From a bacterium (GTDB taxonomy: Bacteria; Bacillota; Bacilli; Lactobacillales; Streptococcaceae), in contig CAJNDO010000006.1 in NCBI GenBank assembly GCA_905221545.1, positions 86,563 through 150,562 on the forward strand: a stretch of DNA of 64,000 nt, read 5' to 3'. A model generated the notes under the pieces. That model was not told the origin of the DNA, ran no database searches, and saw nothing but the letters and a program-made list of their open reading frames with translations. The position numbers were made by a program, and so were the translations under genes. This document shows, one piece after another, positions 45,759-45,890 of the stretch (position 1 is the first letter of the stretch; each line of letters opens with the position of its first letter).

Positions 45759-45890
45759 TTATCTTCTTCTAAAGAAATTAAACAAATTAAACAAAGCATC
45801 ATCTATTTTCCTCATCTCCCCACCTTGAATCTTTTGCAAGTCTTTTTCCTTCAAGGCTACAAACTGTTCCAATTTAACTGTGTTTTTCAT
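45759..45890 (-). CDS. comC: competence-stimulating peptide precursor ComC, unusual pherotype
   Basis: A 43-residue precursor. The 24-residue double-glycine leader (MKNTVKLEQFVALKEKDLQK ... GG) is typical of ComC, cut by ComAB on export. The predicted mature peptide is EMRKIDDALFNLFNFFRRR, 19 residues. It keeps the Glu1, the EMR start and the basic tail of the group, but matches neither pneumococcal CSP-1 (EMRLSKFFRDFILQRKK) nor CSP-2 (EMRISRIILDFLFLRKK). A perfect 9-base tandem duplication (45777-45794) encodes LFN twice. Followed by comD and comE. Confidence 0.96.
   Translation of the reverse strand: MKNTVKLEQFVALKEKDLQKIQGGEMRKIDDALFNLFNFFRRR

Follow-up and report, generated by a model that had tools for sequence, protein, structure and literature searches.

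The comC gene found in the window (the whole 64,000-nucleotide stretch of streptococcal DNA analyzed here) very probably belongs to the ordinary comC genes of the S. mitis complex and encodes the I5 form of the M334 pheromone, which is distant from CSP-1 and part of a class of 16-, 19- and 22-residue peptides most likely separated by 9-base steps. Judging from sequence comparison alone, the window and M334 most likely make up one pherogroup: their peptides differ at a single residue and residues 1-60 of their ComD receptors are identical. The exact I5 allele is new; M334-type pheromones and 19-residue lengths are already known.

The comC gene and its operon

Translation of the comC ORF yielded an intact precursor of 43 residues, MKNTVKLEQFVALKEKDLQKIQGG followed by EMRKIDDALFNLFNFFRRR (Table 1), which passed both NCBIfam NF033214 (84.6 bits against a cut-off of 50) and Pfam PF03047 (ComC; 46.5 bits against a cut-off of 20.4). 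As in other members of the family, the double-glycine leader is followed by Glu/Asp-x-Arg (...QKIQGG/EMR), and comC is the first gene of a comCDE operon located between tRNA-Arg and tRNA-Glu. Cleavage after Gly-Gly is the established rule for such leaders. The ORF, the leader and the two profiles thus confirmed the presence of a 19-residue, mitis-type CSP precursor, which a sequence-only reading of this DNA had proposed. That the peptide is neither CSP-1 nor CSP-2, and two residues longer than both, holds as well, EMRKIDDALFNLFNFFRRR being neither identical nor nearly identical to either of them but a 19-mer of another class with a different core.

The comC, comD and comE genes are all intact, as seen from their ORFs and profiles, and tRNA-Glu and tRNA-Asn lie on the far side of comCDE from tRNA-Arg. 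A direct repeat upstream of comC was the sole match in the 64-kb window (0.02 expected) to a ComE-box pattern; it is designated ComE-box-like and represents a putative ComE-binding site. Excerpts of Kilian et al. (2008; PMC2444020) describe the amplification of comCDE with primers placed in the tRNA-Arg and tRNA-Glu genes.

Table 1. Coordinates of comC, its parts and the surrounding features in the window.
Feature	Position	Strand	Basis
comC, 43-residue CSP precursor with double-glycine leader	45759..45890	minus	ORF call; NF033214, PF03047
comC leader, 24 residues, GG end	45819..45890	minus	72 bases identical to those of M334
Mature CSP EMRKIDDALFNLFNFFRRR, 19 residues	45762..45818	minus	Predicted cleavage after GG
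First 9-base copy TTGTTTAAT (LFN)	45786..45794	minus	Sequence read
Second 9-base copy TTGTTTAAT (LFN)	45777..45785	minus	Sequence read
Degenerate third unit TTC TTT AGA (FFR), same register	45768..45776	minus	Read directly
comC-comD spacer, 12 bases	45747..45758	minus	
comD, 441-residue membrane histidine kinase, CSP receptor	44421..45746	minus	HATPase_c_5 profile
comE, 250-residue LytTR response regulator	43672..44424	minus	Profile match
ComE-box-like direct repeat ACACTTTGG-N12-ACAGTTGAG	45977..46006	minus	Pattern search
Candidate -10 element TATAAT of the comCDE promoter	45940..45945	minus	Read directly
tRNA-Arg, upstream of comC	46055..46128	minus	
tRNA-Glu, downstream of comE	43549..43620	minus	

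By analogy with known biology, the precursor would lose its leader at Gly-Gly and leave the cell, in all likelihood through ComAB; the membrane part of ComD would sense the resulting 19-residue peptide, whereupon ComD would phosphorylate ComE, which would drive the expression of comCDE and comX. Excerpts of PMC6001120 and PMC6456647 describe a peptide cut and exported by ComAB and sensed by ComD, with ComE driving comCDE and sigX, and nothing in the window departs from this known ComAB-ComD-ComE scheme.

Elsewhere in the window, comX1/sigX (63299-63778, plus strand) starts with MLKKMYEEVQG, in which K4 and M5 correspond to the E4K/L5M change given in PMC4932118, in a footnote of a table that lists S. 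mitis strains with and without transformability. comX could be read in 21 of 30 loci, the other nine being without a motif match, and a start of the MLKKMYEE type was also present in three of these 21, namely L143 (from M334), L145 and L146. A second tRNA-Glu (ttc; 63871-63944, plus strand) follows comX1 and looks, by eye, almost identical in sequence to the tRNA-Glu located downstream of comE.

Relatives of the peptide, length classes and the nine-base repeat

Comparisons were based on 80 records (the window and 79 loci, some genomes, probably including M334, being represented twice) yielding 45 distinct CSP/ComD pairs. The first locus set comprised 41 loci, two of which (L029 and L032) were without ComC by pattern. 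A ComC match was obtained in 85 of 284 genomes, and comC-comD was taken from 40 of these 85, corresponding to 40 of the 41 best-scoring ones (G209 was passed over), the remaining ComC-matching genomes being more distant. The ComD comparison omits L042-L101, 37 of these 60 loci coming from genomes that were covered again and 23 from other, mostly more distant, streptococci. Peptides were assigned to classes by their tail in the survey of lengths, and by their length in the within-class correlations and column comparison described below.

Whether an identical ComC had already been deposited was the check on which the sequence-only reading had made the novelty of the peptide depend; the exact I5 form was absent from the 79 loci read and from the 120 proteins listed out of 183, M334 differing from it by I5L. 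Since the protein database was clustered at 90%, an exact copy could be hidden in one of its clusters, for instance in P0001 or P0002, the mature peptide of both of which is that of M334. Literature searches for the exact peptide or its fragments led to PMC5629823 or to no paper at all, and none was retrieved for M334 in combination with S. mitis and CSP; Table S1 of PMC2444020 or that of PMC13059744 may list the peptide. According to PMC2444020, in which comC was sequenced in 66 strains, a ComC peculiar to the individual strain is, with few exceptions, the rule in the pneumoniae-mitis-pseudopneumoniae cluster outside S. pneumoniae. A unique allele in the window is therefore the expected case.

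Among the 120 proteins listed out of 183, mature CSPs with a [KR]R[RI] tail (46 distinct) were mostly 16-mers (37), followed by 19-mers (six, one of them that of M334), with single peptides of 15, 20 and 22 residues, and those with an RKK-type tail were 17 residues long in 26 of 26 distinct peptides; 25 distinct 'other' peptides, many of them truncated or frameshifted, were not counted. An additional 19-mer, EMRKMNEKSFNIFSLFRRR, was present in L039. This length spectrum, in which 16-mers outnumber 19-mers, is consistent with 9-base units having been both gained and lost, the 15-mer and the 20-mer falling off the three-residue steps. In the available text of Miller et al. (2017; PMC5629823), pneumococcal Csp-4_R1, R2 and R3 harbor one, two and three NFF repeats and measure 19, 22 and 25 residues, respectively, R1 being EMRKMNEKSFNIFNFFRRR, and the comD alleles that accompany them form one clade. 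With these published triplet-repeat forms, M334 only one residue away and other 19-mers among the database proteins, the length of 19 residues can no longer be called unusual, as it had been from the sequence alone. Hydrophobic moments of the CSPs showed no clear trend with length.

The two perfect 9-base copies encoding LFN-LFN that had been pointed out in comC are indeed present (Table 1) and read attaaacaa on the plus strand and TTGTTTAAT on the coding strand. Four successive registers match, and the exact period-9 tract thus spans 21 bases. Given the peptide LFNLFN and the codon usage of the window, and with codons treated as independent, the probability of finding identical codons in both triplets was P = 0.08. 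Perfect 9-base tandems were found in four of 39 distinct mature-CSP DNA sequences (the window, M334 and two 16-mers, those of the 16-mers lying in other registers than that of the window). On these two grounds, perfect copies were rejected as sole proof of recency, and the repeat may be regarded as modest evidence for a recent duplication. M334 carries the repeat too, which therefore dates back at least to the split between the window and M334 alleles. At the DNA level, the pattern xxx TTT AAT xxx TTT recurs in several 16-mers and is one unit longer in the 19-mers, which makes the gain or loss of nine bases a natural account; in the class of 16, 19 and 22 residues ending in K/R-R-R, to which the window peptide belongs, a 9-base unit (x-Phe-Asn) would most likely have been gained or lost. 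The shorter mitis form given in the sequence-only reading as EMRK..ALFNLFRRR does exist (P0006, EMRKPDGALFNLFRRR). Both window copies use the leucine codon TTG, and this 16-mer uses TTA twice, so that a duplication of the first LFN unit is a plausible origin of the window allele. Of the recent codon-triplet duplication put forward earlier, the duplication is thus plausible; its recency is not established by the perfect copies. Both this history of the repeat and a specificity held in common with M334 are what we infer. In an alanine scan of the CSP of the S. mitis type strain, reported in PMC10714334, the head and the hydrophobic core contained important residues, and none of the three basic residues of the tail proved critical; the LFN/NFF part would thus be where the insertion of a triplet could matter.

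ComD and the strictness of pheromone pairing

A ComD identical to the CSP-1 receptor, which had been named beforehand as an argument against a new specificity, was not found: window ComD shared 65, 89, 90 and 98% identity with the CSP-1 receptor (L125) over residues 1-60, 61-130, 131-210 and 211-441, respectively. The ComD of L024, used as a stand-in receptor because its peptide (ESRVSRIILDFLFLRKK) is the one most like CSP-2, was 60% identical to that of the window in 1-60. Across the 36 of 45 pairs with a 441-residue ComD, distances between CSPs correlated with distances between ComD residues 1-60 (r = 0.74) and, more weakly, residues 61-130 (r = 0.26), with none of 2000 permutations as high in either case; the correlation was r = 0.07 over residues 131-210 (249 of 2000 permutations as high) and r = -0.03 and -0.04 over the two later parts. 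The nine pairs with other ComD lengths were left out of the correlations, four of them serving as outgroup rows of the tree. Co-divergence of ComD with the peptide, predicted to extend over about 200 residues, was thus upheld mainly for the first ~60 and more weakly up to residue 130, with none shown beyond, and its full predicted extent is ruled out by the result for residues 131-210. Within classes, the correlation with ComD 1-60 was r = 0.17 in 16/19-mers (88 of 2000 permutations as high, n = 14) and r = 0.54 in 17-mers (0 of 2000, n = 22). The co-divergence of ComD is real, but it chiefly separates the 16/19-mers from 17-mers such as CSP-1 and is weak inside the 16/19-mer class.

ComD columns 3, 5, 7, 8 and 11 split all 14 of the 16/19-mer alleles from all 22 of the 17-mer alleles, and the comC-comD spacer was 11 or 12 bases long in the former (14/14) and 20 bases long in the latter (22/22). 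Among the ComDs of other lengths, those of 5/5 17-mers (L3, G5, spacers of 20-22) and of the 16-mer L028 (F3, no G5, spacer of 12) were as predicted from the classes, that of the 16-mer L116 (spacer of 16, other residues) broke the pattern, and of two 18-mers, one (L038) displayed L3, G5 and a 17-base spacer, and the other (L037) fitted neither class. The separating columns fall in the first predicted helix of ComD (residues 3-23), which served as a hint only, the structure model being weak (mean pLDDT 59.7, pTM 0.42). These columns lie next to comC and could equally well have hitchhiked with it in a single recombination tract or reflect contact with the peptide. According to excerpts of PMC4873836, the first extracellular loop of S. 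mutans ComD plays little role in CSP recognition, the second and third being needed; S. mutans ComD is only 22% identical to pneumococcal ComD. This loop result makes it less likely that residues 3-11 take a direct part in CSP recognition. The same result lowers the probability of a reading in which a slippage-prone 9-base repeat sets the length of the CSP in the 16/19/22-residue class and the receptor tolerates length steps and swaps of the whole core, peptide and receptor being uncoupled inside the class and specificity arising only between classes through the first helix (residues 3-11) of ComD, which we regard as distinctly unlikely.

On the ComD tree, the window joined M334 (support 98/87), L002 joined these two (support 100/99), and 19-mers occupied three places, some forks there being poorly supported. 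In L002, an S. mitis isolate (NZ_CAMHZQ010000011.1), the mature CSP lies immediately 5' of comD at 3001. This peptide, EMRKSNNNFFHFLRRI, which also occurs in PMC4363635, is a 16-mer with a core other than that of the window, located in a swapped segment. The ComD of L002 is 97% identical to that of the window overall and 95% identical in 1-60 (three differences), and the upstream region and leader of its comC are those of M334 apart from a few bases. When M334 and L002 were compared in 100-base bins, 20 differences fell in the bin of the mature peptide and 0 and 2 in the flanking bins. Markers linking L002 to M334, and not to L106 and L107, are present on both sides of the swapped segment, and the exchanged tract is therefore at most about 160 bases long; L106 and L107 have a peptide of the L002 kind and a different ComD (78 and 82% identical to that of the window in 1-60). 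L002 thus appears to be a natural recombinant, in which an M334/window-type upstream region, leader and comD are combined with an SNNNFF-type mature pheromone, and it is the strongest single fact against strict CSP-ComD pairing.

L002 bears directly on the proposal that the window peptide defines a separate new pherotype, arisen from a recent LFN duplication and matched by a co-evolved ComD. The low identity of window ComD 1-60 to the receptors of CSP-1 (only 65%) and of L006 and L039 (75-77%), and the supported clade that window ComD forms with M334, would agree with this proposal. However, the same peptide/receptor pair already exists in M334, from which the split is no older than the repeat, and L002 pairs another peptide, a 16-mer, with a ComD in which 57 of these 60 residues are kept; a separate pherotype is thus unproven and, in our view, unlikely. 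The confinement of the L002 swap to a short tract with the mature CSP would agree with a promiscuous type of ComD, whereby the length and core of the CSP drift or are swapped with no loss of signaling, pairing being loose within the class. Consistent with such a receptor are the weak correlation within the 16/19-mer class and, in the accessible parts of PMC10714334 and PMC6456647, the response of pneumococcal ComD to S. mitis CSPs. L002 may, however, be deaf to its own peptide, and one S. mitis strain described in excerpts of PMC13059744 responded to its own CSP and to CSP-1 but not to five others (three from S. mitis, one from S. oralis and one from S. pneumoniae). We consider promiscuity possible, if somewhat unlikely.

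The start of comX1 raises a different prospect, that of a signaling system decaying in the window strain, with an allele that drifts and is not under selection, since it matches the E4K/L5M of the PMC4932118 footnote. Yet the signs of this footnote, in the text available, are illegible as to which strains carry the changes, the same start recurs in three of the 21 comX loci read, one of them that of M334, and a second comX copy may sit outside the window; moreover, comC, comD, comE and the ComE-box-like repeat are intact. Decay is accordingly very improbable, and an ordinary M334-type allele is the reading that we retain. The diversity of S. mitis CSPs may influence which bacteria of the human mouth and throat, among them pneumococci, exchange DNA with one another. 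To this, the window allele by itself adds little. The window, M334 and L002, which combine pheromones of 19 and 16 residues with an almost unchanged receptor N-terminus and flanks, together constitute a natural test of how strict ComD is about the length and core of its peptide.

Comparison with known pheromones

Pneumococcal CSP-1 (EMRLSKFFRDFILQRKK; L125 from G040) shares with the window peptide the operon, the type of leader and the ComE-box-like repeat, and differs from it in being a 17-mer with an RKK tail, in its 20-base comC-comD spacer and in its receptor, as detailed above. Closer is the S. mitis 16-mer of P0006 (also in L105 from G190), which has the EMRK head, the ALFNLF core and the RRR tail, but is three residues shorter, uses TTA instead of TTG leucine codons and is accompanied by a ComD 88% identical to that of the window in 1-60. 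The pneumococcal Csp-4 peptides (EMRKMNEKSFNIF, with one to three NFF and RRR) resemble it in another way, in that R1 is also a 19-mer with an RRR tail, the tandem triplet repeat lies in the same part of the peptide and, in the available text of PMC5629823, a comD clade of their own is reported. The window peptide has neither their EMRKMNEKSF core nor their NFF repeats; frame and tail are the same, residues 5-9 differ and L stands for I at position 12. The ComDs of L006 and L039, whose 19-mers are similar to Csp-4, are 75-77% identical to window ComD in 1-60. Closest of all is M334 (L001, NZ_GL732491.1), a Streptococcus sp. whose mature CSP, EMRKLDDALFNLFNFFRRR, has the length and the repeat of the window peptide, with identical leader DNA and identical ComD residues 1-60. 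One base and one residue (I5L, ATA/CTA) distinguish the two over the whole of comC, and their 441-residue ComDs show 11 differences, every one of which falls between positions 77 and 213 and two of which lie in residues 1-130.
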